Below are positions 1,144 through 22,131 of a stretch of DNA of 32,744 bases, one piece after another. How positions within the stretch are numbered: the stretch's first letter is position 1; every line of letters starts with the position of its first letter. The position numbers and the translations under genes are program-made. The DNA comes from Hyphomicrobiales bacterium (GTDB taxonomy: Bacteria > Pseudomonadota > Alphaproteobacteria > Rhizobiales > Xanthobacteraceae), in NCBI GenBank assembly GCA_027307405.1, contig DAHUXA010000024.1, positions 1 to 32,744 on the forward strand. Direction: 5' to 3'. The notes under the pieces are model-generated. The model was given only the letters and a program-made list of their open reading frames with translations. It was not told the origin of the DNA and searched no databases.

Positions 1144-2268
1144 GTGCGTATTCTGGATCATCCTCGTTTATTGGCGGTCATCGGACTGTGCAGTCTCGCA
1201 ACTCTTGCCGGGGCCCCCGTCAAGATCGGCAATCCCAGGTTCATTTCCGTCGCGCTGGGTCAGCCCGCACTCACGAAATCACAGTCGGATGCGCTCAATG
1301 CCTACAACAAAACAGTACAGGACTTCAGGTCGATCCTGAGCGAGCGACGCGCACAGATCAATGCGAATCAAAAGCTGCCTGACGTGCCGGGACAGGCACT
1401 CTATCTTGCCCGGGTCAGCATGATGGGCGCCTACAAAGACCTTACCGACGTGCTGCCGTCCAGAATCGGGAGGCCAAATAAATATAAAATTCCTCCGGCA
1501 TATTTCGATGCCGACAATGAGCCGCTTGTCGACGAGTATAAGAATCTTTTTCGCATCATGCAGGTGCCACCCGTCAATGCGCAGAAATCCGATACGCCAT
1601 TTAAAGACGTTGTCGACCTTGGGACCGCAATTGCGCGGATCAAGGGTCTCGATGCAGCGCATGCCGAAGTCGCGGGCCGTATCAGCCTGGCCGTCTTCTT
1701 TGCCGAGACAGATGGCAATCAAAACATAGGCAATGCGCGCTCGAATTCTTACAAAGGAAGTTTTCAGACAGGGGTGTCCGAGGACAAAATTGGTCAGAAG
1801 AAATGGGCGGCAATCAAGAAGTCCGTCGCAGCCCTTGATCCAAAACTGAACGCTCGCGACGACAAGGAAGAGGCGCGGGTCGGAAATCCAGATCAGAGAT
1901 ACAATCACTGGACTGCCGTGAGGAACGGCCTCATGAACGCGCACGCGGACCTTTTCCCGAAAATACCGGCAATCATGAAAGCCTTGCCGGACCCGATCGA
2001 TCAAATGAGATTTTTCGAGCTTATCCAGATTATTCCCAGCCCGGCCAAAGCCGCGCTCAATTCAGGCAATTTAGTTAATTACAGGATTTCCGAGCCGCGA
2101 ATCATGGGATACTTGCGCAACAACAGCATGTTTGCCTTTGGAAAAGCCGACCGGGCGAGGACATCCGCGACCATGCGCGAAATTCTGGATTCGATGTGGC
2201 TCTTCAATGATATATTCGATCGCGCGCTGGCCAAATTCGGCGAGATCAAAGCGCAGCAAAAAGGTTGA
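1144..2268 (+). CDS. Exported protein with a possible lytic-transglycosylase-like core
   Basis: A 374-residue protein starting at GTG, preceded by a purine-rich GGAGAGCGGAG. The N-terminus (about residues 8-40) is hydrophobic and reads as a signal peptide. I do not recognise the whole protein. Residues 183-210 show a Glu in a hydrophobic helix (FFAETDGNQN, E188), followed by Asn-rich sequence and SYKGSFQTG. This resembles the catalytic Glu and G-L-M-Q segments of SLT/lysozyme folds, so a peptidoglycan-cleaving role is possible but unproven. The next gene starts 28 bp downstream and encodes another exported glycoside-hydrolase-like protein, so the two are probably co-transcribed and may act together on cell wall or exopolysaccharide. 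A non-catalytic secreted protein is the main alternative. Confidence 0.6.
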   Translation: MRILDHPRLLAVIGLCSLATLAGAPVKIGNPRFISVALGQPALTKSQSDALNAYNKTVQDFRSILSERRAQINANQKLPDVPGQALYLARVSMMGAYKDLTDVLPSRIGRPNKYKIPPAYFDADNEPLVDEYKNLFRIMQVPPVNAQKSDTPFKDVVDLGTAIARIKGLDAAHAEVAGRISLAVFFAETDGNQNIGNARSNSYKGSFQTGVSEDKIGQKKWAAIKKSVAALDPKLNARDDKEEARVGNPDQRYNHWTAVRNGLMNAHADLFPKIPAIMKALPDPIDQMRFFELIQIIPSPAKAALNSGNLVNYRISEPRIMGYLRNNSMFAFGKADRARTSATMREILDSMWLFNDIFDRALAKFGEIKAQQKG

Positions 2269-2296
2269 GCGGCAGGCAACAGCTCTTCGGGGGCCA

Positions 2297-3346
2297 ATGT
2301 CGATCGTATCGAGACGAACATTCACCAAGGGTTTGCTTGCCAGCGCTTTGGTGCCGGGCCATTCGGCGATTGGGCAACCCAACGATCTGGCGGGTATTGC
2401 CATCATCGATACCCCGAACAATGCCGCAAAAGTCGCGTCGAAGTTGTCAGCCCAGAATGTGAAGGTTGTCGTGCGGTTTTTCGCGCGAAAGCCCCAGCCG
2501 GGTCTGCGCGAGAAGGTCATGGCGTCCGACGGCAATATGATCGACGGCATCCGCGAGCCGACCATATTGATCAGAAACGGCCTTTCGATCGTGTCTCTCT
2601 ACCAATATCGAAATAATCTTCCCGAGAAATTTCTGAAGGGTTTGGAAGACACCGGCTCGGCAAAGGCGGAAGTCGCGGCCGATGCAAAGGCCGCGCTGGA
2701 TCAGGCGAGGCTGGTCGGGCAGCCGGAAGGGTCGGCAATCTATTTCGGAGTCGACTTCAATGTGAATCGCGCCGCCGTGGATCCTGTTCTCGAGTACTTT
2801 CGTGTCATCGGTCAGACGGTCGGCAGCCATTATGCGATAGGGGTTTACGGGAACGGGTTCGTCAACCGTATTCTCAGCCAGGAAAAACTCGTGGCGTACA
2901 ATTGGATCAGCGCATCGCGCTCACACGAAGAAACCGTCGCTTTCTATAACAGCGGACAATGGCATCTTTTTCAGAACCAGGTTGATCGCCGCTGGTTTGG
3001 GCCACCCGGCAAATGCTCGACTGGCCTCGATATCGATACGAATTTGCAGAACCCCAACGTATCTAGCATCGGCGCGTGGGGAGCCGGAGAAGTCGACAGA
3101 AGCCGCAACCAGAAGATTTTTGACCAGCGTCGCTTCGCGATCCGCACAACGCCGGTCGAGAGCGGCGGAGGCGGCAGCTGCAAACCCGACAGCCGCGTGC
3201 CGAGGAATGCCAATGTTAGAATTCTTGCGCAATCCGGCGCCTGGTCCGGCGTGGACATCGACGAAGATGGGTACGCCGACGGCCAGGTAAGAACGTCCGA
3301 TCTGACGTCCGATCTCGCGACGATGCCTCCTTGGGGTCCATCGTAA
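2297..3346 (+). CDS. Tat-exported DUF1906 (Rv2525c-like) glycoside-hydrolase-like protein
   Basis: The frame is open further upstream, but the ATG at 2297 puts a twin-arginine signal at the very N-terminus (SRRTFTKGLLASALVPG, residues 5-21) and follows GGGG closely, so I use this start (349 residues). Residues about 30-250 match the DUF1906 domain, a TIM-barrel relative of GH25 lysozymes: IYFGVDFN (148-155), IGVYGNG (181-187), W-H-L-F-Q-N-Q (222-228) and a closing GLDIDTN (243-249). A Gly-rich linker (289-293) leads to a C-terminal segment of about 50 residues resembling a bacterial SH3 domain (VRILAQSGAWSGVDIDEDGYADG). Family members are thought to bind or cut cell-wall glycans, often with unclear activity. 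Its pairing with the preceding exported protein suggests a shared extracytoplasmic role. Confidence 0.78.
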   Translation: MSIVSRRTFTKGLLASALVPGHSAIGQPNDLAGIAIIDTPNNAAKVASKLSAQNVKVVVRFFARKPQPGLREKVMASDGNMIDGIREPTILIRNGLSIVSLYQYRNNLPEKFLKGLEDTGSAKAEVAADAKAALDQARLVGQPEGSAIYFGVDFNVNRAAVDPVLEYFRVIGQTVGSHYAIGVYGNGFVNRILSQEKLVAYNWISASRSHEETVAFYNSGQWHLFQNQVDRRWFGPPGKCSTGLDIDTNLQNPNVSSIGAWGAGEVDRSRNQKIFDQRRFAIRTTPVESGGGGSCKPDSRVPRNANVRILAQSGAWSGVDIDEDGYADGQVRTSDLTSDLATMPPWGPS

Positions 3347-4174: not shown

Positions 4175-5488
4175 ATGCAATTCTTTGGACCGGCTATCGT
4201 GTCCGCGGCCATCTGCGCAGTCACGAGCGGCGCGGTGTTTGCACAACAGCCGCCATCTGCGCAGTCCGGCGCGCAGAAATTGATGGCCGTACCGGGGTCG
4301 AAATATCCGGGCCGCATGCATGTCTTGCCAGCGACTATGGAAACGACGCAGTGGGGCTGGTTCGACAACGCCGAATTACCACGTCTGATTATTGATTCAG
4401 GTGATACCGTCGCTATCGAATCGATGTCGCACTCCCACGGCCAGCTTTGGCCGGGCCGAACCATCGAAGAGTTGAAAAAACTTCGTACGGATTGGCCGGG
4501 CCGCGGTCCGATGACGCTGACCGGCCCAATCTTCGTCAATGGGGCAGAGCCCGGCGACACGCTCCAGATCAAGATCCAGAAAATCGTGCCGCGGCCGTGG
4601 GGCGCAAATTTCAACGTGCCGGGACTGTTCGGGCAATTCCCCAGCAAATTCCCGGATGGACAGGTGAAATATTTCTATCTCGATTCGGAGCGAAAAACTG
4701 CGGAGTTCGCCCCGGGTATCGAAATTCCACTGCGGCCCTTCCCGGGGACGCTAGGCGTCGCGCGCAAGGAACCCGGCCGCTACAACGCGGTACCGCCCGG
4801 ACCCTTCGCCGGAAATCTGGACAACCGCGATCTGGTTGAGGGAACAACGCTGCATGTTCCCGTTTTCGTGCGCGGGGCTCTGGTCTGGCAAGGCGATTCT
4901 CACGCGGCGCAAGGAAACGGCGAGATCAACCTGACCGGACTCGAGACCGCGTTCCAGGAGATTACGATAACGGCGACGGTCGATAAAACGACGAAGCTGG
5001 AGTGGCCGCGCATCGAGACCCCAACCGCATGGATCACTATGGGCTTCGACGAGGATCTCTCCAAGGCGCTTGCCAACGCCAAATCGGAAACGGCAAAGTT
5101 CCTGGCGGAGCAACGCAAGATTTCGCCGGACCAGGCGATGGCACTGGTGTCAAAGACATCCGATTGCCGGGTGACCCAAGTTGTGGACATTAAAAAGGGC
5201 GTCCACTGCACGACATCGAAGGACGCCAGCAAATCGCTCGCCGAACCGCGGCCGACCGTCGAAACTCCAGAATATCTGGTGACCTCCGCCGCCGATCCCG
5301 ACATGAACAAGGCCATGGATAGTGCCTCATGGGCCATGATCGAACTTTTGCAAAAGGAAAAATCACTGTCGCGGCTGGATGCCTATTCGCTCGCGAGCAT
5401 GACCATGGATTGCCGCGTCGGCGAAATGGATGCAGCTGAAAAGAGTGTGCATTGTCTTGTCGCCAAGAGCATGTGGACGAAACGATAA
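4175..5488 (+). CDS. Exported acetamidase/formamidase-family protein (paralogue 1)
   Basis: A 437-residue protein with a signal peptide (cleavage likely after VFA at residue 23). Residues about 45-290 are an FmdA/AmdA fold, the family of metal-dependent amidases releasing ammonia from short amides: HVLPATMETTQWGWFDN (49-65), the hallmark GDSHAAQGNGE (240-250) and PRIETPTAWITMGFDEDL (278-295). The common cytosolic family members run about 300-320 residues; this one adds a C-terminal extension. In that extension, residues 292-349 and 374-431 align without gaps at an 82-residue offset, each holding DCRV and HC with cysteines 14 apart (C331/C345 and C413/C427). Disulfides would suit the periplasm. 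It is followed closely by a second exported paralogue, so an operon is likely. Substrate unknown; activity is inferred from the family only. Confidence 0.85.
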   Translation: MQFFGPAIVSAAICAVTSGAVFAQQPPSAQSGAQKLMAVPGSKYPGRMHVLPATMETTQWGWFDNAELPRLIIDSGDTVAIESMSHSHGQLWPGRTIEELKKLRTDWPGRGPMTLTGPIFVNGAEPGDTLQIKIQKIVPRPWGANFNVPGLFGQFPSKFPDGQVKYFYLDSERKTAEFAPGIEIPLRPFPGTLGVARKEPGRYNAVPPGPFAGNLDNRDLVEGTTLHVPVFVRGALVWQGDSHAAQGNGEINLTGLETAFQEITITATVDKTTKLEWPRIETPTAWITMGFDEDLSKALANAKSETAKFLAEQRKISPDQAMALVSKTSDCRVTQVVDIKKGVHCTTSKDASKSLAEPRPTVETPEYLVTSAADPDMNKAMDSASWAMIELLQKEKSLSRLDAYSLASMTMDCRVGEMDAAEKSVHCLVAKSMWTKR

Positions 5489-5512
5489 GATCAAAACCTA
5501 AGTGTGAGAATT

Positions 5513-5522
5513 AAGGGGAGGG
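5513..5522 (+). promoter_or_regulatory. Strong Shine-Dalgarno site deciding the start of paralogue 2
   Basis: AAGGGGAGGG ends 5 nt before the ATG at 5528. An in-frame GTG at 5504 lies upstream of this site and would put charged residues (RIKGRER) before the signal peptide, so the ATG at 5528 is the start. Confidence 0.75.
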
Positions 5523-5527
5523 AACGT

Positions 5528-6925
5528 ATGATTCATGCATCATTCATGTTTCGCATCGCGGTCGGTGTCAGTGGCGTGCTGATCATCGGCGCTGCAGCAT
5601 TCGCGCAAACGCCGGCACCCGCTCCGGCCGCGCCCGCTTCGGGATTGCCGCCAACCGCGACAATTAATACCCCCGGCTATCCTGCGGCCGGGCCTGCCGA
5701 CCCGGCACTTCGCGTTCTGACATTGCCGGGCGGCAAGAAGGTGCATGTGCTGCCGGCCACGCTTGAAACCACGCAATGGGGCTGGTTCGACAATTCCCAG
5801 CCGCCGGTGTTACGCGTCCATTCCGGTGACACCATTGTGATGGAAACGATGATGCACAGTCACAACCAGGTGGTTCCGGGCGTCACCATCGAACAGATCA
5901 AGAAATTGCGCACCGATTTCCCCGGACGCGGGCCGCACACTTTGACGGGGCCCATCTATATCGAAGAAGCGCAGCCCGGTGATGTTCTCAAGGTCAGGCT
6001 CAATAAAATCATTCCACGGGCATACGCGACGAACTTCAACGTCCCTGGCATGTTCGGCCAGTTCCCGAGCGTCTTTCAGGACGGCCAAGTCAAGTACATG
6101 TACCTCGATCTCGATAACATGACGACCGAGTTCCTGCCCGGCATCGTTTTGCCGGTGCGACCTTTCCCGGGCACGCTTGGCGTCGCGCGCAAGGAGCCTG
6201 GCCGCTACTCAAGCGTGCCGCCCGGCGAATACGCTGGCAACATGGATATCCGTGATTTCGTCGCCGGCACAACGCTCTATGTGCCCGTTCATGTGCCGGG
6301 TGCACTGCTATGGAGCGGCGACTCCCACGCGGGGCAGGGGAACGGCGAGGTCAACCTCACCGCCATTGAGACTGCTTACAAAGAGCTCAACATCACAGTG
6401 GAAGTCGTCAAAGGCAAGCCGCTCGACTTCCCGCGCATCGAGACGCCAAAATCCTGGATCACGATGGGGTTTGACCAGGATCTGAACAAGGCTTGGGCGC
6501 AGGTGAAAGCCCAAACCGTCAAGTTTCTCTCCGAACAGCGCGGCGTATCTGCCGAGCAAGCGGCGAAATTGATGACGAGCGTTTCCGATTGCCGGGTCTC
6601 ACAAGTGGTCAACATCAAGAAAGGCGTTCACTGCCTCAATCCCAAGAATGTGCGCGACAAGGAAGACATGGAGCGCCCGGCCAAGGAAACGCCAAAATAT
6701 TACGTCTCGCACGCCAAGGATCCCGATCTGAACAAGGCGATGAACGAGGCATCGATGGGTATGATCAAGTTCCTCGAATCGGAGAAGAAAATCGCGCGTC
6801 TTGATGCCTATGGGCTCGCTAGCGTGGCGATGGACTGTCGGGTCGGCGCGATTTCCGATGCCGAGAAGAATGTCCATTGCGTGATGCCGAAGAGCATCTG
6901 GGCCGCCAACGCCGGCAAGCGCTAG
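5528..6925 (+). CDS. Exported acetamidase/formamidase-family protein (paralogue 2)
   Basis: A 465-residue close paralogue of the gene just upstream. A signal peptide (cleavage likely after AFA at residue 26) is followed by an Ala/Pro-rich linker (28-45). The FmdA-type catalytic core follows: VHVLPATLETTQWGWFDN (72-89), GDSHAGQGNGE (264-274) and PRIETPKSWITMGFDQDL (302-319). The C-terminal part again carries the duplicated module with exactly the same 82-residue offset (D316/D398, C355/C437, C369/C451), so the duplication predates the split of the two paralogues. About 40 bp separate it from paralogue 1, and a hairpin with a T-rich tail follows it. It is likely a periplasmic amide hydrolase or binding protein acting with its neighbour. 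Substrate unknown. Confidence 0.85.
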   Translation: MIHASFMFRIAVGVSGVLIIGAAAFAQTPAPAPAAPASGLPPTATINTPGYPAAGPADPALRVLTLPGGKKVHVLPATLETTQWGWFDNSQPPVLRVHSGDTIVMETMMHSHNQVVPGVTIEQIKKLRTDFPGRGPHTLTGPIYIEEAQPGDVLKVRLNKIIPRAYATNFNVPGMFGQFPSVFQDGQVKYMYLDLDNMTTEFLPGIVLPVRPFPGTLGVARKEPGRYSSVPPGEYAGNMDIRDFVAGTTLYVPVHVPGALLWSGDSHAGQGNGEVNLTAIETAYKELNITVEVVKGKPLDFPRIETPKSWITMGFDQDLNKAWAQVKAQTVKFLSEQRGVSAEQAAKLMTSVSDCRVSQVVNIKKGVHCLNPKNVRDKEDMERPAKETPKYYVSHAKDPDLNKAMNEASMGMIKFLESEKKIARLDAYGLASVAMDCRVGAISDAEKNVHCVMPKSIWAANAGKR

Positions 6926-6968: not shown

Positions 6969-6975
6969 GCGAGCC

Positions 6976-7887
6976 ATGGTATTGCGTTCCGGTCTCATCG
7001 TCGCATTGCTTGCCTTGGCATCACCGGGATTTCCGCAGGACCGGGTCCTGGTGGTGACCACCACGACCGACCTGCGTAGTTTGACCGAGGCCGTGGGCGG
7101 CGACCGGGTCGTGGCGGCGAGCCTCGTTCCGCCGAACATGGACGCTGAGGAATATCAGCCCAAGCCCCAGGACGTGCTGCGCCTCAGGCAGGCGCGCCTG
7201 CTTGTGCGAGTGGGGCTCGACTACGATCTGTGGGTCGATCGTCTGCTAGCACAAGCCGGCAAGCCCGCGATCAGCCGTGGTGGCCCTGCTTACGTCGACG
7301 CCTCTTTTGCGATTACCGTACTAGAGCTTCGTGGGATGAGCGTCGGCCCCGGCGACGGCCACGCCCATGGCAGCGGCAACCCGCACTATTGGCTGGATCC
7401 GAAAAACGCAGAGATCATCACTGCCAACATTCTTGAAGCCTTGGCGCGAATCGATCCGGCCAATGCCGCACAGTACGAAGCAAATCGGCAGGCATTTCTC
7501 GCTCGTCTGAATTCAAAGCTGGCAGAATGGGAAATAAAACTGAGCGCGCTAAAAAACATGCCGATTGTCGCCTACCACAACAGCTGGCCCTATTTTGCGC
7601 GCCGCTTCCGGCTGGACTTTATCGACTTTATCGAGATCAAACCCGGCGTGCCACCGAGCCCCTCGCACCTTGCCGGAATAGTACGGAGCATGCGTGAGCG
7701 CGGCACCCCTATCGATGTGCGCGAACCGCATGAGCCCGAACGCGACGTTGCTTTCGTAGCAAACAAGGCCGGGGCAAAAGTGGTGACGCTCGCCGCATCG
7801 GTCGGCGCACTGCCGGAGACCGACGATTATATCTCGCTGTTCGAGGTGAACATCGAGGCCCTCATATCAGCGGCGGCCAGGCGATGA
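6976..7887 (+). CDS. ZnuA/TroA-like metal ABC transporter substrate-binding protein
   Basis: A 303-residue cluster A-I (ZnuA-like) protein. The frame is open upstream, but the ATG at 6976 starts directly with a signal peptide (VLRSGLIVALLALASPGFP) followed by RVLVVTTTTDLRSL. Visible family motifs are NPHYWLDP (135-142, ligand H137), AYHNSWPYF (199-207, H201) and a short His-containing loop GDGHAHGSG. Where ZnuA/PsaA carry the first ligand His (PHxYEP), this protein reads MDAEEYQPKP (55-64), with Glu in place of His. Its metal preference may therefore differ, or this may be another subfamily. Its stop overlaps the permease start by 4 bp (ATGA), so the two are translationally coupled. No ATPase gene adjoins them. 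A terminator-like hairpin immediately upstream may limit expression from the amidase-family genes. Confidence 0.82.
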   Translation: MVLRSGLIVALLALASPGFPQDRVLVVTTTTDLRSLTEAVGGDRVVAASLVPPNMDAEEYQPKPQDVLRLRQARLLVRVGLDYDLWVDRLLAQAGKPAISRGGPAYVDASFAITVLELRGMSVGPGDGHAHGSGNPHYWLDPKNAEIITANILEALARIDPANAAQYEANRQAFLARLNSKLAEWEIKLSALKNMPIVAYHNSWPYFARRFRLDFIDFIEIKPGVPPSPSHLAGIVRSMRERGTPIDVREPHEPERDVAFVANKAGAKVVTLAASVGALPETDDYISLFEVNIEALISAAARR

Positions 7888-9161
7888 ACGATGCACTCCA
7901 GTTTCTCTGGCCGTCCTTCCTCGTGGCGGTGGTGCTTGTCGGCATCCATGCCTATTTCGGCATCCAGGTGCTTGCCCGCAAAGTGATCTTTGTCGATCTG
8001 GCGCTCGCGCAGATCGCGGCATTAGGCGCGACGGTGGCGTTCATGCTCGGCCATCCGGCGCAGAGCATTGCGACCTATGGCTATTCGCTCACATTTACGT
8101 TGCTTGCTGCCGTGCTGCTGGCGTTCACGAGGGCTTGGGGTACGCGTGTGCCGCAGGAGGCGCTGATCGGGGTCATTTACGTTGTTGCCGCGGCGATGGC
8201 CATTCTGCTCATCGATAGGGCACCACAAGGCGCTGAACATCTCAAGCAGATCCTGACCGGAAATATTATCACCAGCGGACTCAATGAGCTCGCTGTCATT
8301 GTTCCGCTTTATGCAGCCGTCGGGCTGTTGCACTGGCTGTTGCGCCGTCACATGACGGGAATGGGGTCGCTCGTTTGGGAATTCCTATTTTATGCGACCT
8401 TCGGCATCGTCGTGACCAGCTCGGTCGCAATTGCCGGGGTGCTGCTGGTTTTTTCGTTTCTGATCATTCCTGCCGCCATCGGAGTCATGTTCGGGGAATT
8501 GCTTTCAAGACAGCTCGCAATCGGCTGGATCGTTGGCACGTTCGTGAGTGCCGCGGGTCTTGCCGCCTCGTTTGCCTTCGACTTGCCAACGGGCGCGGCG
8601 ATGGTTTGCGCTTTCGGCGTATCCTTGGCGCTCGCTGGCATGCTCTACCCGTTTTTGCGCGACAACCGCCGATGGGCAATGCGCTCCGCGATTTCAACCG
8701 CTCGCTGGATTGGTGCTGCAATTCTGGCGGGCTCCGCGTTGCAACTCGCGGCCGCGCCACGCGCGGATCAGCCGCTCATCGACATGGCCGAATACGCAAT
8801 TCCATCGCTTCGCGCGCTATATTTCACGCGTGCCGAAGCGACGACGTTTGCAGATGCCAGCGAGCACGCGGAACGTTATCGCAGAGAGGCAGAGCAGCTC
8901 AACGAAATGGAACGGCGCAACCGCACGCAAGGTCAGGCACTCGACGACTTCAGCGTTGCGCGCATTTCCTCGTTCATGAAATCTTATGGAGAAATGCGCA
9001 AAGGCGAGCAATTTGTCATGGGTGAAGTGCGGGCGAGGGCGCGCGAACGTGTCCGATGGGGTGCGAGCTTTGGCTTGTTGGCGTTGTCAGTTCTGGTGGC
9101 CCCTGTTCGCTGGAGACGTCATCAGTCCACAGACAAGACTAACAAACAATTGCCGCGGTAA
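7884..9161 (+). CDS. ZnuB-like metal ABC transporter permease with C-terminal extension
   Basis: Residues 1-260 are an ABC-3 family permease: about eight hydrophobic helices, IFVDLALAQIAALG near residue 35, and GVLLVFSFLIIPAA near residue 185, which includes the coupling region. Usual family length is about 260-290 residues; this one has 425. The extra 160 residues hold another helix (about 268-287), then a charged, probably periplasmic stretch with coiled-coil character (EHAERYRREAEQLNEMERR), and a final hydrophobic segment (about 393-410) with a basic tail. It starts inside the binding-protein stop codon. It should move a divalent metal inward, but no cognate ATPase is encoded nearby, so it must borrow one or work differently. 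The third FmdA-family gene follows after about 100 bp. Confidence 0.8.
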   Translation: MNDALQFLWPSFLVAVVLVGIHAYFGIQVLARKVIFVDLALAQIAALGATVAFMLGHPAQSIATYGYSLTFTLLAAVLLAFTRAWGTRVPQEALIGVIYVVAAAMAILLIDRAPQGAEHLKQILTGNIITSGLNELAVIVPLYAAVGLLHWLLRRHMTGMGSLVWEFLFYATFGIVVTSSVAIAGVLLVFSFLIIPAAIGVMFGELLSRQLAIGWIVGTFVSAAGLAASFAFDLPTGAAMVCAFGVSLALAGMLYPFLRDNRRWAMRSAISTARWIGAAILAGSALQLAAAPRADQPLIDMAEYAIPSLRALYFTRAEATTFADASEHAERYRREAEQLNEMERRNRTQGQALDDFSVARISSFMKSYGEMRKGEQFVMGEVRARARERVRWGASFGLLALSVLVAPVRWRRHQSTDKTNKQLPR

Positions 9162-9256
9162 CGGAATCCCATTTACTTCGGAGATTTTGCGATGAGAGGA
9201 CTTGGCGACTACCAACGCGTCCCTGATAGTCTTATCACTGCACTTGGGAATTGATT

Positions 9257-9260
9257 GGAG
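9257..9260 (+). promoter_or_regulatory. Shine-Dalgarno GGAG selecting a TTG start
   Basis: GGAG followed by a 7-nt spacer reaches TTG at 9268. The only other in-frame starts are TTGs further upstream with poorer spacing, and no ATG in this frame precedes the conserved region. Starting at 9268 gives the short N-terminus normal for cytosolic family members. Confidence 0.5.
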
Positions 9261-9267
9261 ATGTCCT

Positions 9268-10224
9268 TTGCAGAAGCCACTCAGCGTTCCGCGCATCGAC
9301 GCAGGCCCGACTACCGTCCATTGGGGTTTTTTTGACGCGAATCTTTTACCGGTGCGCACCATCGACAGCGGTGAGCGTGTCACGATTTCATCAGTCTCCG
9401 GTGGCCCCGAGTTGATGCCGCCTCCTCCTTTCGAGGTTCCGTCGGCGCTGCCTGCCATTCATGCCGCCAACGGTCCGCAGCGGTTTTTCGGTCATATATG
9501 CACCGGTCCGGTCGCGGTGCGGGGCGCAAGAGCCGGACAGACGTTACAAGTTGATATCGAGACAATCGATCTGCATTACGACTGGGGATACAACGTTATC
9601 CGTCCGCTCGCGGGCGCGCTTCCCGACGACTTTCCGGAATACCGACCGATTTATATTTCGCTCGACAGGTCGCGTATGACCGGCCGATTGCCTTGGGGGC
9701 AGGAAATTCCCCTGAGGCCCTTTTTTGGAGTGATGGCGGTGGCGCCGCCGGCAGAGTGGGGCAGGATCACGACGTTGCCGCCACGCCGGAACGGCGGAAA
9801 TCTCGACAACAAAGAACTTGTCGCTGGCACCACTTTATACCTTCCGATTTTCACTGACAGCGCGCTTTTCTCCGTAGGTGATGGGCATGGAGCGCAGGGC
9901 GATGGTGAAGTTTGCGTCACTGCCATCGAGACCGGGCTAGTTGGCACATTCCGTCTCACGGTTCGCGACGATATGCGCATCGAATGGCCGCGTGCCGAGA
10001 CACCTACGCACATGATCACCATGGCGTTCGACCCCGATCTCGATGATTGCGTGGTCATCGCGCTGCGGCAGATGATCGATGTTGTTTGCGCGCGCGCCGG
10101 TCTTGATCGCTATCAGGCTTATGCATTGCTGAGCCTTGTCGCCGATTTACGCGTCACGCAGGTGGTGAACGGCAACAAGGGTATTCATGTTATGTTGGAC
10201 AAGCGCTATTTGACGCGCGGCTAA
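9268..10224 (+). CDS. Cytosolic acetamidase/formamidase-family protein (paralogue 3)
   Basis: 318 residues from the TTG at 9268, the usual family size, with no signal peptide. Family motifs are TTVHWGFFDANLLP (15-28), GDGHGAQGDGE (204-214), which is the presumed metal/active-site segment, and RAETPTHMITMAFDPDL (242-258). The C-terminus ends in a single copy of the module that is doubled in the two exported paralogues, reading ADLRVTQVV...KGIHV (292-308), with Leu and Val where they have Cys. This supports a cytosolic enzyme without disulfides. It probably hydrolyses a small amide, perhaps a product made or imported by the neighbours; that link is inferred from gene order. It is convergent with the hydrolase gene that ends at 10286, and I see no clear terminator between them. 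Confidence 0.83.
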   Translation: MQKPLSVPRIDAGPTTVHWGFFDANLLPVRTIDSGERVTISSVSGGPELMPPPPFEVPSALPAIHAANGPQRFFGHICTGPVAVRGARAGQTLQVDIETIDLHYDWGYNVIRPLAGALPDDFPEYRPIYISLDRSRMTGRLPWGQEIPLRPFFGVMAVAPPAEWGRITTLPPRRNGGNLDNKELVAGTTLYLPIFTDSALFSVGDGHGAQGDGEVCVTAIETGLVGTFRLTVRDDMRIEWPRAETPTHMITMAFDPDLDDCVVIALRQMIDVVCARAGLDRYQAYALLSLVADLRVTQVVNGNKGIHVMLDKRYLTRG

Positions 10225-10285: not shown

Positions 10286-12097
10286 TCACCGTCGCCGCTT
10301 TGATTTGGCTATGGGTCTTGCCGACTTAGTCCGTTTTATATTTACTTCCCGCTTCGCGGGGATAATCGGCAGCAGCACAAAGTTCTCGCGCCCGCCGCCG
10401 ACATGAATAGTCGTTTGACCGCCATAGATCTCCATCGGCCGGTCGCGCGGGTCATCGTGCAAGAACGGGCCGCAGCCGGTGAATTCGTTTTTCATGTTTG
10501 AAAGTTTGCCGCCCGAGCCGCCGGGGTAGACATAGTCGCGCCCGCGCACGCTCAACGCCACGCGATGCCCTTTCGGTACAACAATGCAGGTCGGAATGAT
10601 TTCGATATCGAGCTCGTAGGCCTGTCCAGGCTTAAGCTGCTGCTTTTCGTCGTGGGTGTGGTACGGCCGGAAGGGCAGCGTCAGCTTCTTGTCGAGTTTG
10701 CGATGGGAGGCGCGCAACCAGCCTTGCCCGATTGGCGTGTGTGGGTCGAGCGCACCCTGGAATACGATCTCTTTCATGTCGGGAGAAAACACGCGCAGCA
10801 CCAGAAAGATGTCGGCGTCCTCTGTCGACGACGAGATATGAAGCTTGGCGGCAACCGGTCCGGTGATCTCGGTCGCCTCTTGCATCGGTTCGGTGAGGAA
10901 AGTAACGCCGTCACTTGGCGCCTCGAACGTCACCGTCGCCGAACTCCTCGGCGCTTCGGGCGACAGTTTGTGGCCGTCGGCGACCAGGTGAAACTTAGTC
11001 CACTTGGTACTGGGCAGCGGCCAATTGTCTTCGTGGCGAATCACAAATTTTTCGCCCGGATGACGGACGTTGAGCTGCACGCGTGGCTGTTTGTTCCAAC
11101 CATTTCGCTCGCCCTTGAGGAAATAGCCGAAGAACTTCCTCTGCAATCCGACCCCATAGTCGGTGTAGTAATGCGTCCAATGCTCGATGCCGTGCACTTC
11201 AAGCCATTTCTGTTTCGATGCAGATCGGAAGAAACCCTCGAAATTGCCGCGCGGGTGAAGCGGCTGTCCGCCCCAATTCGCGGCTGAGAGTAGCGGCACC
11301 TTGACCTTCGACCAGTCCGGCAACATCGCCTTGTAGAAATCATCGTCGAACGGATGGGCGAAATAGGTTTTGCCGAGATCATAACGGCTGGCGCCCATTT
11401 GTTCGGCCGTGAGTGTTTCTGGGCCCGACACCCAGTCGCCGTTCATTCGACTGCGGTGGCCTTTGGTGCCAAGGCCGTACTGCACGGTCTTGACCTGCAT
11501 GTCATACCAATTTTGCGCAAATGTATTGTAGATCCCGCCATTGTGGCTGAGCTCGCGATAAAAATCGGCGAACCCTTCCCAGACGCAAATGGCGGCAAGA
11601 TGTTTCGGCTGCATGGCCGCCACCTGCCACTGGTTGATGGCGTAGTAGGAAATGCCGCTCAGTCCGACCTTGCCATTCGACCAAGGCTGCACCCCGGCCC
11701 ATTCGACGCAATTATAAAAATCCTTAGTCTCGCGCGGAGACCAGTGCTCAACGTAACCAGGCGAGCGGCCGCAGCCGCGCGAATCGACGCGCACGCACAC
11801 ATAGCCGTCGGGTACCCATTTTTCCGGATCGCAGATTTCCCAGCTCTGGTATTTGTTGGTCGATCCAGCCATCACATCCGGCTGCTTTTCTTCCATGCGT
11901 TTCCAGGCGGTCTTGTAGCCGTCTTCGAAGTGCAGCCACTTGCCATATGGGCCGTGGCTCAGAATAACCGGATAGCGGCCTTTCTTTACCGGCCGAAATA
12001 CATCGCATCGCAGCACCAGCCCGTCATCCATCTCGATCGGCATGTCCCAATCGATCTGCATACCGTCGCGAACTTCACTGACCTCGCGATAACTCAT
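10286..12097 (-). CDS. CocE/NonD family (S15-like) hydrolase, copy B
   Basis: A 603-residue alpha/beta-hydrolase of the X-Pro dipeptidyl-peptidase S15/cocaine esterase group, which cleaves esters or amides. From the ATG at 12097 it lines up residue for residue with the neighbouring copy: 35 of the first 50 residues are identical and both have the nucleophile at S150 (GLSGISYYA). A GTG at 12160 overlapping the upstream stop is possible but lacks a ribosome site, whereas AGGAG lies 9 nt before 12097. Other motifs are CVRVDSRGCGRS (101-112), the His region HGIEHWTHYY and a C-terminal jelly-roll ending GRENFVLLPIIP. The usual GWYD Asp segment reads ANWGGQ, so the acid residue is not where CocE has it. 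It is the last gene of a ten-gene minus-strand block. No signal peptide; cytosolic. Substrate unknown. Confidence 0.85.
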   Translation of the reverse strand: MSYREVSEVRDGMQIDWDMPIEMDDGLVLRCDVFRPVKKGRYPVILSHGPYGKWLHFEDGYKTAWKRMEEKQPDVMAGSTNKYQSWEICDPEKWVPDGYVCVRVDSRGCGRSPGYVEHWSPRETKDFYNCVEWAGVQPWSNGKVGLSGISYYAINQWQVAAMQPKHLAAICVWEGFADFYRELSHNGGIYNTFAQNWYDMQVKTVQYGLGTKGHRSRMNGDWVSGPETLTAEQMGASRYDLGKTYFAHPFDDDFYKAMLPDWSKVKVPLLSAANWGGQPLHPRGNFEGFFRSASKQKWLEVHGIEHWTHYYTDYGVGLQRKFFGYFLKGERNGWNKQPRVQLNVRHPGEKFVIRHEDNWPLPSTKWTKFHLVADGHKLSPEAPRSSATVTFEAPSDGVTFLTEPMQEATEITGPVAAKLHISSSTEDADIFLVLRVFSPDMKEIVFQGALDPHTPIGQGWLRASHRKLDKKLTLPFRPYHTHDEKQQLKPGQAYELDIEIIPTCIVVPKGHRVALSVRGRDYVYPGGSGGKLSNMKNEFTGCGPFLHDDPRDRPMEIYGGQTTIHVGGGRENFVLLPIIPAKREVNIKRTKSARPIAKSKRRR

Positions 12098-12106
12098 GAC
12101 TTCTTG

Positions 12107-12111
12107 CTCCT
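12107..12111 (-). promoter_or_regulatory. Shine-Dalgarno AGGAG for hydrolase copy B
   Basis: CTCCT on the plus strand is AGGAG on the coding strand, 9 nt before the ATG at 12097. It supports that start over the GTG at 12160, which overlaps the upstream TGA but has no such site. Confidence 0.55.
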
Positions 12112-12156
12112 GGAATTTGCTTTCGACCTCGAGCGACGCTGGCGTCTTCGCCACGC

Positions 12157-13911
12157 TCACTTCTTGGGAATGACGGGCAGCAGCACAAAGGCTTGCCGGT
12201 CGGGTCCGGCATGCAGGGTAACATCGCCGCTAAAAACCGCTGGTGGGCGGTCGCGCGGGTCGTCATGGGTGAATGGGCCGACGCCGGTCCAGACTTTGCC
12301 GAGCGTTGCCACGCCGGCGCCGGGCTCACCGGGAAAGACATAATCGGTGCCGCGCACGGAGAGCGCGAGCCGATAGCCTTTCGGTAAAACGATGCAGGTC
12401 GGCCATATTTCGACGTCGACCTCATAGACCTGGCCCGGCGCGAGCTTCTGCTCTTCGTCGTGCGTGTGATAAGGCCGATACGGTAGCGTGAGCTTCGGGT
12501 CGAGTTTACGGTGCGAGCAGCGCAGCCAGCCTTGTGCGATCGGCGTATGCCCATCAAGCGCCCCTTGGAAGGTGACCTCCTTGAGGTCCTGCGTAAACGC
12601 GCGCACTACCAGGAACAGATCGGCATCTTCAGTCGCCGACGACACCCACAGCTTCGCCGCAATTGGGCCAGTGATTTCTGTCTCCTGTTCGAGAGGCTCG
12701 GACAGAAACGTAACGCCCTCGCTAAAGCCAGGATAGGTGACGGCACTTGGTGCATTCTGTGGCGCCGTCGACAGCGCCATGTCCGCCGGATGAAGGTAAA
12801 ATTTTGTCCAATTGGTACGCGCGAGCGGCCACTCGTTCTCGTGCCGCTCAACAAATTTCTCGCCGGGGTGGCGCACCTGAAGGAGCACCTTCGGCTGCTT
12901 ACTCCAACCCGTGTCCTCACCTTTAAGAAAGTGGCCGAAGAACTTCTTCTGCAGCTCGACCCCGTAATTTGTGTAGAAATGTGTCCAGTGCTCGATGCCG
13001 TGCACCTCCAGCCATTTCTGATCGGAAGCGGCGCGCACGAACCCCTCGAAATTTCCGCGGGGGTGCAGGCCTTGTCCGCCCCAGTTGGCGGCAGAGAGCA
13101 GCGGCGTTTTGACCTTGGTCCAGTCCGGCATGCGTGACTGCCAATAGGGGTCGGTGTCGAGCTTGCGCGAGATGCAGTCTTCGTAAAAGTCGCGGCGGTT
13201 GCGGCCAAGTTGTTCTTCTGACAGCGTTTCCGGGCCCGAGACCCAGTCGCCGTTCATGCGGCTCTTGAAACCGCGGGCGCCACGACCGTTCTGTACCGAA
13301 TAGACCTGCGCTTTGGACCAGTCCTGTACAAAGCCGCGATTAAAAATTCCGCCATGGTGCGCCATGTCGCGATAGAAATCGGCAGCGCCTTCCCAGGTGC
13401 AAATGGCGGCGAGATGCTTTGGCTGAAGCGCCGAGGTCTGCCACTGGTTCTGCGCATAATAAGAGATACCGTTGAGGCCGACCTTACCGTTCGACCACGG
13501 CTGCGTGCCGGCCCAATCGACGCATTGCGCCAGATCCTGCGCCTCACGCAACGACCAGATATCGATAATGCCGGGCGAGCGGCCAGCGCCGCGACTGTCG
13601 ACCCGGATGCAGACATAGCCATCGGGTACCCATTTCTCCGGATCGACCACCTCCCAGCACTGATACTTGTTGGTCGAGTCGGTCGGTACATCCGGCTGGT
13701 CGGCGCACATGCGCTCCCATTGGCTCTTGTAGAGATCAGCAAAGTGCAACCACTTGCCGTACGGTCCGAGAGTCATGATCACTGGATACTTGCCTTCGGC
13801 AATCGGCCGGTAAATGTCGCATCTCAACACCAATCCATCTTTCATCTTGATCGGCATATCCCAATCGATTCGCATACCATCGCGGATCTCACTCTTTTCA
13901 CGGTAGTCCAT
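12157..13911 (-). CDS. CocE/NonD family (S15-like) hydrolase, copy A
   Basis: A 584-residue paralogue of the next gene, with the same architecture: an N-terminal alpha/beta-hydrolase domain with nucleophile S150 (GLNGISYYAQNQWQ), DSRGAGRSPG, the His region HGIEHWTHFY, and a C-terminal beta-sandwich (LALSVRGTDYVFPGEPG, then ending FVLLPVIPKK). AANWGGQGLHPRGN replaces the Asp-bearing loop of CocE in both copies. The start ATG is preceded by GAGGAAG. Copy B follows with about 60 bp between coding regions, so this is a tandem duplication. The ABC importer ATPase gene ends about 100 bp upstream in the same direction, which suggests these enzymes hydrolyse what the importer brings in. Candidate substrates are esters or amides; the sequence does not say which. 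Confidence 0.87.
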   Translation of the reverse strand: MDYREKSEIRDGMRIDWDMPIKMKDGLVLRCDIYRPIAEGKYPVIMTLGPYGKWLHFADLYKSQWERMCADQPDVPTDSTNKYQCWEVVDPEKWVPDGYVCIRVDSRGAGRSPGIIDIWSLREAQDLAQCVDWAGTQPWSNGKVGLNGISYYAQNQWQTSALQPKHLAAICTWEGAADFYRDMAHHGGIFNRGFVQDWSKAQVYSVQNGRGARGFKSRMNGDWVSGPETLSEEQLGRNRRDFYEDCISRKLDTDPYWQSRMPDWTKVKTPLLSAANWGGQGLHPRGNFEGFVRAASDQKWLEVHGIEHWTHFYTNYGVELQKKFFGHFLKGEDTGWSKQPKVLLQVRHPGEKFVERHENEWPLARTNWTKFYLHPADMALSTAPQNAPSAVTYPGFSEGVTFLSEPLEQETEITGPIAAKLWVSSATEDADLFLVVRAFTQDLKEVTFQGALDGHTPIAQGWLRCSHRKLDPKLTLPYRPYHTHDEEQKLAPGQVYEVDVEIWPTCIVLPKGYRLALSVRGTDYVFPGEPGAGVATLGKVWTGVGPFTHDDPRDRPPAVFSGDVTLHAGPDRQAFVLLPVIPKK

Positions 13912-14009: not shown

Positions 14010-15095
14010 TTATGCAGTGTTGACCCGGCGTCCTTCAGTATCGAAAAGATGAGTCAGGTGTTGATCTAGCGACAACGCGACGCGTTCGCCGACTTTGATA
14101 TCGGCCATACCGAGACCTTCGGTGACCGCTACGAACGCCCGGTCATTGCTGGCATCGAAATAAAGCAGGGTGTCCTTGCCGAGCGGTTCGACCAGCCGCA
14201 CCGGCAGCTCGATGTCGCCCTTTGTACCGACATGGACCTGCACGTGCTCCGGTCGAATGCCGAGCGTAGCGGTGCCCGGGGTTGCCGCCTTGAAACGTTC
14301 GGGCAATGCAAAATCGAACCAACTCGAGCGAAATCGAGTGGACGTGCCGTTCTGCACAACTTCGCCGGCAACCAAATTCATTGATGGTGAGCCAAAGAAA
14401 TCGGCGACAAAATAATTGGCAGGATTTGAATAGATCTCCATTGGCGATCCGACCTGCACGATCTCACCCGATCGCATGACGACAATGCGGTCAGCGAGTG
14501 TCATCGCCTCTTCCTGGTCGTGGGTGACATAAATAAACGTGCGTTTGAGGGTCTGGTGTAGCCGGTCGCATTCCGCACGCAGCTCACGGCGGAGCTTGGC
14601 GTCTAGGCTCGACAGCGGTTCATCCAGCAGGAACGTCGATGGATTGGTAACAAGGGTTCGGGCGAGCGCGACCCGCTGGGCTTCGCCACCAGAACATTGA
14701 TTTGGCATCTTCTCGAGCAGATGACTGATACGCACCATGTCTGCTACTTCGCGGACCCGTTTTACGCGATCCGCCTGCGGCACGCTCTTCATGCGCAGCC
14801 CGAACTCGATGTTCTGAGCGACATTTTTGTGCGGAAACAGAGCGTGACTCTGGAACACCATGCCGAGGCCGCGATCACGCGGCTCAAGGTCATTGACCAC
14901 GCGGCCGTCGATACGAATTTCGCCGGCGCTTGGATCTTCGAAGCCCGCGATCATTCGCAACGTCGTCGTCTTTCCGCATCCGGACGGGCCGACAAAAACG
15001 ACGAATTCGCCATCTTCAATTGTGAAACTGAGATTTTTTACGGCTTTCACTGCGCCGAAAGATTTCTCTAGATTGCACAGCTCGATGCGCGCCAC
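14010..15095 (-). CDS. ABC importer ATP-binding protein (MalK/UgpC/PotA type)
   Basis: 361 residues from the GTG at 15095, which lies 2 bp after the permease stop and has GGAG 6 nt upstream; the frame stays open further but would run into the permease gene. Walker A is GPSGCGKTT (36-44), Q-loop Q82, Walker B FLLDEP (155-160) and D-loop SSLD (162-165). The H-loop is in YVTHDQEEAM, and a TOBE-type C-terminal domain contains LGIRPEHV. The signature reads CSGGE (134-138) where LSGGQ is usual. It powers uptake through the two permeases encoded just upstream. The family handles sugars, polyols, polyamines and related solutes; the substrate cannot be told from the ATPase. Confidence 0.92.
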   Translation of the reverse strand: MARIELCNLEKSFGAVKAVKNLSFTIEDGEFVVFVGPSGCGKTTTLRMIAGFEDPSAGEIRIDGRVVNDLEPRDRGLGMVFQSHALFPHKNVAQNIEFGLRMKSVPQADRVKRVREVADMVRISHLLEKMPNQCSGGEAQRVALARTLVTNPSTFLLDEPLSSLDAKLRRELRAECDRLHQTLKRTFIYVTHDQEEAMTLADRIVVMRSGEIVQVGSPMEIYSNPANYFVADFFGSPSMNLVAGEVVQNGTSTRFRSSWFDFALPERFKAATPGTATLGIRPEHVQVHVGTKGDIELPVRLVEPLGKDTLLYFDASNDRAFVAVTEGLGMADIKVGERVALSLDQHLTHLFDTEGRRVNTA

Positions 15096-15097
15096 GA

Positions 15098-15979
15098 CTA
15101 TCTCCGTACCATGCCGAAGCTGAAGCCGCGGGCGAGATGCCTGCGAATAATCAGCCCAACAATCATGAGCGGAACCGTAATCCCGACCGCCAGCGCGGCT
15201 TGCCGCCCATATACGCGGCCCTCGGTGGAACCTTGGTATTTGGACAATTCGATCGGCAAGGTCGTTACCTGGGTCTTCGTAATGATCAGGGCCAGAAGGT
15301 ATTCGCTCCAAGTCAGGATAAGAATGAACAGGAAGGTCGCCACCAATCCCGATCGTATTAGCGGCAATACAATCTCGAATACTGTACGCCAGCGAGACGC
15401 CCCGAGAATTTCCGCAGCTTGCTCGATCTCTCGCGGCACCTCGTCAATGAAGCTTTTGGTCATCCAAACCGCGTAGGGCAGCGTCGTGAGAAAATAAACG
15501 AGGATGAGACCAAGCCGCGTATCGATCAAACCGATGGCCGTGTAATAGAGCGACAGCGGCGCCACGATCACGATCGGTGGAATCATCCTGAGGACCAGAA
15601 GCTGAAACATGCGCACTTCAGACAGAATGCGATAACGAGATACGCCGTAGGCGATGATCGATCCAAACAAAACCGAGAGAAACGTCGAAGTCGTCGCGAT
15701 GACCGTCGAGTTGTAGAGGGAGATCAACGGTTTTTGAGATGAGATGGCATATTGCGTCTGCGCATATTCTTCAGCGCCAAACCAGACATTCATGTAATTG
15801 GCAAAGGTCGGTGGGCTTGGAAAATAATACGGCGGCCAGGCGAACCACTGCGTGTCGAGTTTGAACGAAGTGGAAACAATCCAATAGATCGGAAAAAATG
15901 CGATCACTCCCCAGACACTAAGCACGGCGTACCGAACAAGCGCTGTGATGCGGCGACGACGCGATTTAGTCATTGCCAT
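15098..15979 (-). CDS. ABC importer inner-membrane permease (MalG-like)
   Basis: 293 residues with six hydrophobic helices, the first at about 12-30 (LVRYAVLSVWGVIAFFPIY). The EAA coupling motif reads EQAAEILGASRWRTVFEIVLP, about two thirds along. It is typical of the second permease of CUT1-type systems (about 270-300 residues). The start ATG directly abuts the stop of the upstream permease with no gap, and a second ATG two codons in is possible. It forms the membrane channel with that partner and is driven by the ATPase encoded just downstream. Confidence 0.9.
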   Translation of the reverse strand: MAMTKSRRRRITALVRYAVLSVWGVIAFFPIYWIVSTSFKLDTQWFAWPPYYFPSPPTFANYMNVWFGAEEYAQTQYAISSQKPLISLYNSTVIATTSTFLSVLFGSIIAYGVSRYRILSEVRMFQLLVLRMIPPIVIVAPLSLYYTAIGLIDTRLGLILVYFLTTLPYAVWMTKSFIDEVPREIEQAAEILGASRWRTVFEIVLPLIRSGLVATFLFILILTWSEYLLALIITKTQVTTLPIELSKYQGSTEGRVYGRQAALAVGITVPLMIVGLIIRRHLARGFSFGMVRR

Positions 15980-16969
15980 TTAAGCCCCCGCGATTGGTTC
16001 ATCGGATTGTTCGTACATCTTGTCGAGCGACCGTTTTTCTCGGCGAAGCAATTGGATCGCAAGTAGAACGATGACGACCATCATGAGCATGACGATGTAA
16101 GACATCGCCGCGCCTTTGGAGATCTGGAAGTACTGCCACGTAGTCATGAATATGTAGACAGGGAGCGTTTCGGTCGCTGAACCGGGCCCGCCCTGGAACA
16201 GGGCCCACGTTTTCGGGAATTCCGCCATGGCCTCAAGGAAGCGCAGCACCAGTGCCAGCAATATCACTGGGCGCAGCAAAGGAAGTTCGACTTCCCAAAA
16301 AATCCGCCATTTGGATGCGCCTAGAATTTCTGCCGCCTCGACCGGCTCCTTCGGGATTGCCGAGAGACCGGCGAGCATGATGATGAAGGAGAAGGGCGTC
16401 CAGTTCCAAATCTCAAGCAGGCTCACCGTCATCAGCGCAATATTCGGATTGCTGAGCCAGGACGGCTTGAATTCGAATCCGCTCAGGCGGGTGATGACAT
16501 CGTTTATCGGGCCGCTCTGATACAGCATCATTTCGGCTGTATAGGCGACGACGACCGGAACGGTGAGCATCGGCAGGATAAAGATGATGTAATAGATCGC
16601 CTGTCCGCGGAACGGTCGCTTCATGAGATAAGCAAGCATGAAGCCAAAGACGAAGCATCCGAGCGTGGAGCTCGTCGCGAACGCCAGCGAACGCAGCGTA
16701 GCCCAGCCGAATCGCGGGTCCGTCAAAACTTCCTTAAAAAGATCAATGCCTACGTAATCTGCGTCCCACCACGAACTGAGATAAACGGTCCACTGGTGAA
16801 ATGAGAAATAAAGCTGAAGTAACAATACCGGGACCAGCAAGAAAGCAAACAACGCGATTAGTGGTGCTAGCAACGAAAGCTTGAAACGTCTGATCGCGCG
16901 CTGTCTGGAGATAGCGCGCGGCGACGCCTGCGGCGGTGCTTCGGCAGCCGAAAGAGCGGCTACGGCCAT
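15980..16969 (-). CDS. ABC importer inner-membrane permease (MalF-like)
   Basis: 329 residues, with an Ala/Arg-rich cytoplasmic N-terminus and then about six helices beginning at SLLAPLIALFAFLLVPVLLLQLYF. EAA motif: EAAEILGASKWRIFWEVELPLLRP. I start at the ATG at 16969, which has AGAGGG about 6 nt upstream; a GTG two codons earlier is the alternative. It is the first permease of a CUT1-like system, encoded between the binding protein (about 80 bp upstream) and its permease partner. A charged tail (RREKRSLDKMYEQSDE) ends the protein. The substrate is set by the binding protein and is unknown. Confidence 0.9.
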   Translation of the reverse strand: MAVAALSAAEAPPQASPRAISRQRAIRRFKLSLLAPLIALFAFLLVPVLLLQLYFSFHQWTVYLSSWWDADYVGIDLFKEVLTDPRFGWATLRSLAFATSSTLGCFVFGFMLAYLMKRPFRGQAIYYIIFILPMLTVPVVVAYTAEMMLYQSGPINDVITRLSGFEFKPSWLSNPNIALMTVSLLEIWNWTPFSFIIMLAGLSAIPKEPVEAAEILGASKWRIFWEVELPLLRPVILLALVLRFLEAMAEFPKTWALFQGGPGSATETLPVYIFMTTWQYFQISKGAAMSYIVMLMMVVIVLLAIQLLRREKRSLDKMYEQSDEPIAGA

Positions 16970-17050
16970 TCCCACCCTCTTGTTAGAACGTCCGGACGAG
17001 CATAGGGCTCGTCCGGCTGATGGAAGACAGGTCTACCGCGCGATCAATGG

Positions 17051-18493: not shown

Positions 18494-18915
18494 GACTTCC
18501 TCCCTAGACGTGTTCACTGTCAGCGCCCAAGATTGCTTCGTACCAATTTCGACATTGCGCCATCGTCAATGACGATCGACCGAATTACTGGTTGGCCGAC
18601 GAAGCTGATTTCGGGCAGATGCATGCGCTTCGTTGCCTGCAGCGTCTCAGCAGCAGACAGACTACGTTCCCGTTCGCGAGAGGAAATACTCAACGGCCCT
18701 CCCGAATCTTAGTCTCAAACGCGAGCAGGCGGGCTGGAGCCGGTACGCGTTAAAACTAAGCACAACTCTGGCGTTTACGTCCCAAAAAAGTCCGCGTTTT
18801 AGGTCGCAGTTATTAATTGCATCGTAGGATGGCGCATATCGGACCGCAACACGCTTCTAAGTCCGAGTGATGGATCTCGTTCGCTATTTCATCCCGAGAA
18901 ACGACGAGAACAGCA
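18494..18915. other. Gene-free stretch upstream of the ABC importer operon
   Basis: About 420 bp between two minus-strand genes, with no credible gene. It is the likely promoter region of the importer operon. It contains the perfect palindrome at 18562-18576, and GGGAGGA just before the binding-protein start. I saw no clear terminator for the aldo/keto reductase gene that ends at 18916, so read-through from upstream remains possible. Confidence 0.5.
18562..18576. promoter_or_regulatory. Perfect 15-bp palindrome, possible operator
   Basis: ATCGTCA-A-TGACGAT: 7-bp perfect arms around a single base, 69-83 bp upstream of the binding-protein start. On the coding strand the right half contains TTGACG, which resembles a -35 element, so a bound regulator would cover the promoter. 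The divergent GntR/FCD gene at 23175 is the only regulator in the window and a possible binder. No clear -10 box was found. Confidence 0.4.
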
Positions 18916-20819: not shown

Positions 20820-20916
20820 GCGCGCCGTCAGGAAAGTTTGCACTCGGAGTTTCCGACGCAAAAAGGGTGCTTCCAACCGACTGGGTCAGGAGCACCTCTT
20901 GTCATGCGTCGCTACA

Positions 20917-22047: not shown

Positions 22048-22131
22048 CACGTCTAGCCTCCCTGATAATTGTGTATTTTTGTTTTCTTCGTCGCCTGAGA
22101 TTTTGCTCAGTTGCGCCGTTTACGAACTGAA

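Follow-up and report, generated by a model that had tools for sequence, protein, structure and literature searches.

The locus analyzed here raises the question of why two adjacent genes of the FmdA family should encode proteins with a signal peptide and with a C-terminal module in two copies, here termed A and B. These genes, for the proteins P1 and P2, lie in a 32,744-nucleotide stretch of the genome of a Hyphomicrobiales bacterium (contig DAHUXA010000024.1), the whole of which is referred to as the window; a third protein of the family, P3, is encoded further downstream. All three score above the curated cut-off of PF03069 (FmdA_AmdA). The evidence supports a true internal duplication in an exported FmdA subfamily, and the double-module FmdA gene travels with a metal-transporter gene pair, a linkage that an earlier sequence-only reading of the window had missed. 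The double module and the cassette of FmdA and metal importer appear to be new, the fold and both transporter families being already known; no description of the double module, of an exported FmdA protein or of FmdA with a metal importer was found in open-access PubMed Central (PMC), where the slashed spelling of the name may have gone unmatched.

By eye, the signal peptide of P1 (MQFF...AVFA) ends between AVFA and QQ, and that of P2 (MIHASF...AAAFA) between AAAFA and QT, suggesting that both proteins are Sec-exported and reside in the periplasm. The translation start of P2 is very likely the ATG at position 5528, not the GTG at 5504, since a GGGAGG-like stretch lies just 5' of this ATG. The mechanically called open reading frame (ORF) begins at the GTG and shifts the residue numbers by 8; the numbers given for P2 in the sequence-only reading (C355/C437 and C369/C451) are right for the ATG start.

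The doubled C-terminal unit and its cysteines

Residues 292–349 of P1 align without a gap to residues 374–431, and 20 of the 58 positions are identical, which reproduces exactly the count made in the sequence-only reading at an offset of 82. When each protein was compared with itself at offsets from 15 upward, taking the best ungapped BLOSUM62 segment, the offset of 82 was the best in both P1 (score 123, runner-up 34) and P2 (score 137, runner-up 34); no segment of P3 scored above 27, and this protein has one copy only. The match of copy A to the remaining tail exceeded all 2000 shuffles in both P1 and P2. The repeat unit comprises about 75 residues, and its two gap-free copies are 82 residues apart in both proteins. 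Copy A aligns with P3 and, like the C-terminus of P3, with that of solved acetamidases. Since copy A is the normal FmdA C-terminus, copy B is the added unit. Hence, of the duplicated module proposed earlier, copy B is indeed extra, but copy A is nothing new, being the ordinary βααββ C-terminal unit of FmdA.

A scan of genome contigs yielded 17 related loci (L007–L023), which form a sparse subfamily, mostly alpha- and betaproteobacterial by record title; a handful of records bear broad or implausible titles (Euryarchaeota, Klebsiella) and may be binning errors. For comparison, FmdA ORFs with a length of 250 residues or more were collected, 104 in all after removal of duplicates and contained ORFs. 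Of these, 84 are the other FmdA proteins, drawn from class, order, and genus samples; up to 18 come from the order search and were hand-picked, in many cases because of a long frame, and percentages among them are not population frequencies. Alignment A1 was made without L021 and L023, and alignment A3 without L023, whose gene is split into two frames in the metagenome-assembled genome. Two module copies were present in none of the 78 other FmdA proteins with a module match (84 examined). The idea that the module is a mobile domain occurring outside FmdA was rejected, as all profile matches in the scanned loci (L054–L111) lay within FmdA proteins, the coverage extending to a minority of the weaker matches of the order search. 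High-confidence matches of copy B in the PDB were FmdA chains only; a weak match to Lpp20 had an E value of 0.077.

P1 and P2 resemble the FmdA_AmdA structures (PDB 2f4l, 3tkk, 2ii1, 5ubu, 3b9t, and 2wkn) in whole sequence and fold, and the C-terminal unit of these structures corresponds to copy A. They differ by adding copy B, paired hairpin cysteines, a signal peptide, Q83, N272, and the linkage to a metal importer. A further close comparison is 3b9t, a predicted acetamidase/formamidase of Methylobacillus flagellatus filed with a Tat signal, which is exported by name and, like the subfamily, lacks His83 (Ser in its place); unlike the subfamily, it has a single C-terminal unit and no hairpin cysteines, and it keeps the aspartate at position 272.

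In the predicted structure, both copies fold alike. The AlphaFold2 model of P2, based on 20 aligned sequences, has a mean predicted local distance difference test (pLDDT) value of 67.6 and a predicted template modeling (pTM) score of 0.68, with block means of 71–93 in the modules. Copy A is modeled as a strand (309–316), two helices (319–338 and 342–352), and two strands (354–359 and 365–372), and copy B presents the same elements in the same order (strand 391–398, helices 401–418 and 424–434, and strands 436–442 and 447–454). Copy B of P1, folded alone, also gave a β-α-α-β-β arrangement (pLDDT 86), and in a Foldseek search of the PDB this model matched acetamidase-family structures, with FmdA-family chains at all of ranks 1–15 (TM scores of 0.71–0.78 on the query). 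The result for copy B alone is not independent of the sequence evidence, because its alignment included copies A and P3, and the predictor presumably saw these PDB entries.

P1 and P2 each have only four cysteines outside the signal peptide, and all of them are in the module copies. As the sequence-only reading had it, the cysteines of the DCR...HC motif are 14 residues apart in each copy of both proteins, and the single copy of P3 carries Leu and Val in their place (DLRV...IHV). The 18 subfamily rows of alignment A3 that reach the protein end contain exactly four cysteines outside the signal region, and the L021 protein, which ends early in A3, contains two. The first cysteine (C355 in P2) was found in all 20 subfamily members and in none of the 76 other FmdA proteins with a residue at this position; neither it nor the double copy is thus ordinary across the family. 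The second cysteine, also present in 20/20 subfamily members, occurs in 17 of the 62 others with a residue there, so that an older "GIHC" form may have given rise to the pair, which was seen in the exported subfamily only, by gaining the first cysteine.

Both cysteines of each copy are located on the two strands of the final predicted hairpin of the P2 model, where the sum of 355 and 369 equals that of 359 and 365, the closing pair of the strands; in the model of copy B alone, the cysteine register is off by one. Most likely, each hairpin holds one disulfide, predicted to be C355–C369 and C437–C451. The four conserved cysteines, with a conserved His adjoining in each copy and a metal importer encoded next door, could also be read as a metal site or as forming bonds across the copies. 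This is unlikely, as the cysteines within a copy lie on two strands of one predicted hairpin, although the register in copy B makes this argument less than conclusive. The duplication and the cysteines are best seen as a means of stabilization, possibly also as a docking surface, in an oxidizing compartment, and not as a requirement for export, since 3b9t, filed as exported, is single-copy and lacks these cysteines. The earlier proposal of an adaptation to the periplasm by duplication and disulfides therefore stands for the duplication and the placement of the cysteines, the disulfides themselves being predicted; the periplasm as the reason is unsupported or incomplete in view of 3b9t.

Subfamily history and the metal-transporter cassette

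Subfamily-strength matches to module B were confined to the window's genome in the order sample of 249 genomes (147 and 170 bits; next best 67) and in the phylum sample (1 of 398 genomes), and double-module FmdA occurred in 3 of the 43 genomes of the genus sample; absence is weaker evidence here, as the wide genome searches scored part of the candidates (up to 4 per genome in the phylum search, 21 in the order search, and 9 in another search). P1 and P2 occur side by side in the window and in just one of the related loci, L007, which is the same contig as L103; upstream sequence is short in some of these loci.

A tree of 58 units and 81 columns was built with 15 rows for copy B, 12 for copy A, and 31 for single-copy units, the last consisting of the 30 best-scoring distinct units and P3, with P3 present twice. 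Copies B (99/97), copies A (99/98), and the single-copy rows (91/86) fell on separate branches, in a tree with few columns, many unresolved forks, and long branches that meet. This arrangement fits one old duplication. A recent tandem duplication in each protein was rejected, because all A copies group together, as do all B copies, within the same limits of few columns and long branches. The features of the old unit seem to have been divided between the two copies. The serine of the second helix, present in 74 of 76 other FmdA proteins, is kept by copy A in just 3 of 20 subfamily members, and copy B shows DAY-x-L-x-S in 15/15 aligned rows.

Directly downstream of the FmdA gene, 15 of the 17 related loci carry the gene of a metal-binding protein (split into two frames in L013). 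The gene of a permease with a C-terminal appendage then follows in 14 loci within the stretch covered, L016 being cut off. L021 ends at the FmdA gene. In L018, both genes are missing from the 4 kb that follow, and no appended permease turned up in the genome of this locus. One appended permease each was found in 15 of the 17 related-locus genomes, and in the genus sample it is present in exactly the 3 of 43 genomes with double-module FmdA; two of the three are apparently those of L007 and L008, which makes the locus count and the genus count overlap. Among all the samples searched, the appended permease was found only in genomes with double-module FmdA. Neither the binding protein nor the permease gave a match in any of the 84 ordinary-FmdA loci, where flanks are short (median downstream room of about 1.5 kb; of 83 ordinary FmdA ORFs measured, 79 are followed by 900 bases or more). 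The genes of the cassette are probably transcribed together; a scan for promoters and terminators gave matches at chance level only. P3 was rejected as a member of the cassette, as L007–L023 contain no P3-type gene within the stretches covered.

The family profile of the binding protein matches chains named as binding proteins of zinc, manganese, and iron transporters, and this profile was aligned to PDB 1pq4, the binding protein of a zinc transporter. In alignment A4, made without L013, L018, and L021 and numbered from position 6970, the residues H131 and H133 of an HxH loop (131–133), H139, H203, and E60 are invariant. Measured against what we take, in part, to be the usual four metal-ligand positions of cluster A-I proteins, E60 stands in place of the first ligand His, and the usual C-terminal acid is not kept. 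The permease retains the ABC-3 core, as judged from the profile and alignment A5. Its appendage is conserved and, by eye, consists of two hydrophobic stretches flanking about 100 charged, helical-looking residues, with no match in Pfam and no sequence match in the PDB; alignment A6 comprises 12 of 14 permease tails, the other two being cut by contig ends.

No gene for a cognate ATPase was found by phmmer with two known ABC ATPases in the 17 related loci, L103, L104, and the window, a search that reached about 4 kb on both sides in 9 of the 17 loci, so that a more distant ATPase is possible. The search did return two ATPases: that of another transporter in the window (14013–15311, minus strand) and one in L015 that lies upstream of FmdA and is a generic ABC_tran match. 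In the window's genome, PF01297 matches once, and the permease of the cassette is the sole strong match to PF00950; as this genome is 93% complete, genome-wide absence is not proof. Its best AztA-like ATPase, on another contig, scores 152.8 bits against a cut-off of 220 and adjoins a permease that is FecCD-like by eye and weakly above the ABC-3 cut-off (23.0 vs. 20.1). With a periplasmic binding protein, the FecCD-like permease, and the best AztA-scoring ATPase, this locus (G000:C424, L122) is a candidate source of the missing ATPase.

We think that AztABCD is the closest working analogy for the role of double-module FmdA in the cassette. According to passages in PMC6689063 and PMC7463823, AztD, whose gene accompanies aztABC, is a periplasmic zinc chaperone that transfers its metal to AztC, the loop histidines of which are required; the metal ligands of AztC include His138 and His204 (in a passage of PMC7463823). 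In both systems, the genes of a cluster A-I binding protein and of an ABC-3 permease are accompanied by that of a periplasmic partner, and both binding proteins have a short His loop. Yet, AztD is a β-propeller, whereas the partner here has the FmdA fold, and AztABCD includes the AztA ATPase, whereas no ATPase gene adjoins the present cassette, which is further distinguished by the permease appendage and by two changed ligand positions in the binding protein. The scores against the AztC and AztB equivalogs (NF040870 and NF040871) lie far under the cut-offs (114.5 vs. 350 and 40.1 vs. 280).

Changed FmdA residues and candidate functions

The FmdA core residues N238, D240, D265, H267, Q270, and E274 are kept in 20/20 subfamily members. 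In contrast, H83 is replaced by Q in all 18 scorable members (His in 60 of 68 other FmdA proteins), and D272 by N in 20/20 (Asp in 74 of 84 others). Further changes, each in at least 90% of the subfamily, are G236 to A, P221 to R, and S262 to W. P3 retains the His and the Asp at positions 83 and 272. The two replacements leave family membership unaffected, since H83 and D272 are at most putative catalytic residues and no published criterion for it. An open-access search found no literature identifying the catalytic residues of FmdA, and passages in PMC10781810 named none for this family. The subfamily also has an HxH motif at 110–112, in which H112 is present in 18 of 19 scorable members. The exception is L018 (HAQ), which is also the only locus with 4 kb of room and no transporter, a coincidence that is no more than a hint.

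Relocation of an ordinary formamidase or acetamidase to the periplasm, with the extra copy and the disulfides as stabilizers and the transporter neighbor as incidental, would account for the intact FmdA fold and for the restriction of the cysteine pair to the exported subfamily. This explanation is nevertheless improbable, for 15 of 17 loci, from alphaproteobacterial as well as betaproteobacterial records, show the linkage, which is matched by the co-occurrence in the genus, the exported 3b9t lacks the module, and two widely conserved residues are changed.

Building on the observed duplication, conserved cysteines, cassette, co-occurrence, and changed residues, we tentatively favor, at somewhat less than even chances, the reading that P1 and P2 are a periplasmic partner of the adjacent metal importer, binding a metal or metal complex and passing it to the binding protein; the metal handling and the direct contact with the binding protein are suggested by the analogy to AztABCD. 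A single duplication of the C-terminal β-α-α-β-β unit would have taken place in the ancestor of the subfamily, which is small and mainly alpha- and betaproteobacterial, and the terminal β-hairpin of each copy would hold one disulfide. The exported FmdA-fold protein, a scaffold with an altered active site, would then pick up a metal or metal complex in the periplasm. As from AztD to AztC, the metal would be handed to the AztC/ZnuA-type binding protein, which would serve the ABC-3 permease with its appendage.

Several observations weigh against this reading. With two of the usual ligand positions lost, the binding protein may carry something other than zinc, or other than a free metal, and transport itself is putative, as the search turned up no cognate ATPase. 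H83 and D272 have only a putative role in FmdA chemistry, and H83 is also lost in 3b9t and in 8 of the 68 other FmdA proteins, one of which has Q. The correlation in L018 is one case, and in L023, a locus that does carry the transporter, the N-terminal piece is missing the motif's first His. Moreover, with the FmdA core intact in 20/20 members, the data agree almost as well with an amidase whose specificity has changed.

Such an enzyme is a realistic possibility, if a less probable one: P1 and P2 could be active periplasmic amidohydrolases that cut an amide ligand, e.g., a metal-chelating one, the importer taking up the metal or the product. The conservation of all six core residues, the PF03069 scores well above the cut-off, and the tight cassette with the importer agree with this, but H83 and D272 are replaced in every scorable member, and there is no known substrate. 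In addition, P1 and P2 score only 54.3 and 67.3 bits against the formamidase equivalog NF045496 (cut-off 500), although the ordinary P3 also reaches just 63.6.

Extending the reading of P1 and P2 as a periplasmic partner to the cassette as a whole gives a novel type of metal-uptake system made of a doubled, stapled amidase-fold carrier, a binding protein with a rebuilt metal site, an appended permease, and a borrowed ATPase, a picture that is less likely than not. If it were true, an old amidase fold would have been recruited to metal acquisition, in an importer without an adjoining ATPase gene and with an undescribed permease domain, and annotations of these proteins as formamidases would need correcting. 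The step from linkage to function is directly testable with three or four genes.

Features and other genes of the window

The features discussed above are collected in Table 1.

Table 1. Coordinates of the FmdA-family genes, their module copies, and the transporter genes in the window.
Feature	Position	Strand	Basis
P1, exported FmdA-family protein, 437 aa, double C-terminal module	4175–5488	+	PF03069, 96.4 bits (cut-off 27)
P1 copy A, residues 278–349, C331 and C345	5006–5221	+	Offset-82 segment; aligned to 2ii1 and 3b9t
P1 copy B, residues 360–431, C413 and C427	5252–5467	+	Offset-82 segment; separate fold prediction
P2, second exported double-module FmdA, 465 aa from ATG	5528–6925	+	PF03069, 117.5 bits (cut-off 27)
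P2 copy A, residues 299–375, C355 and C369	6422–6652	+	Repeat scan; AlphaFold model
P2 copy B, residues 381–457, C437 and C451	6668–6898	+	Repeat scan; AlphaFold model
ZnuA/AztC-type (cluster A-I) metal-binding protein with signal peptide	6976–7887	+	PF01297, 197.5 bits (cut-off 29)
ABC-3 metal permease, 4-base overlap with binding-protein gene	7884–9161	+	PF00950, 73.8 bits (cut-off 20.1)
Permease C-terminal appendage	8667–9158	+	12 full-length tails aligned
P3, ordinary single-copy FmdA, no evident signal peptide	9202–10224	+	PF03069, 103 bits

Upstream of P1, positions 2132–3346 encode an Rv2525c-like glycoside-hydrolase-like protein. On the other side, two adjoining S15-type hydrolases (X-Pro dipeptidyl-peptidase family) are encoded on the minus strand at 10286–13911, convergent with P3, and this pair adjoins an ABC importer at 14010–18517 that consists of an ATPase, a permease, and an SBP_bac_1 protein. 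Farther along, a protein with six Kelch-type repeat matches (20920–22050) is encoded between two TctC-type binding proteins (19827–20876 and 22135–23196).

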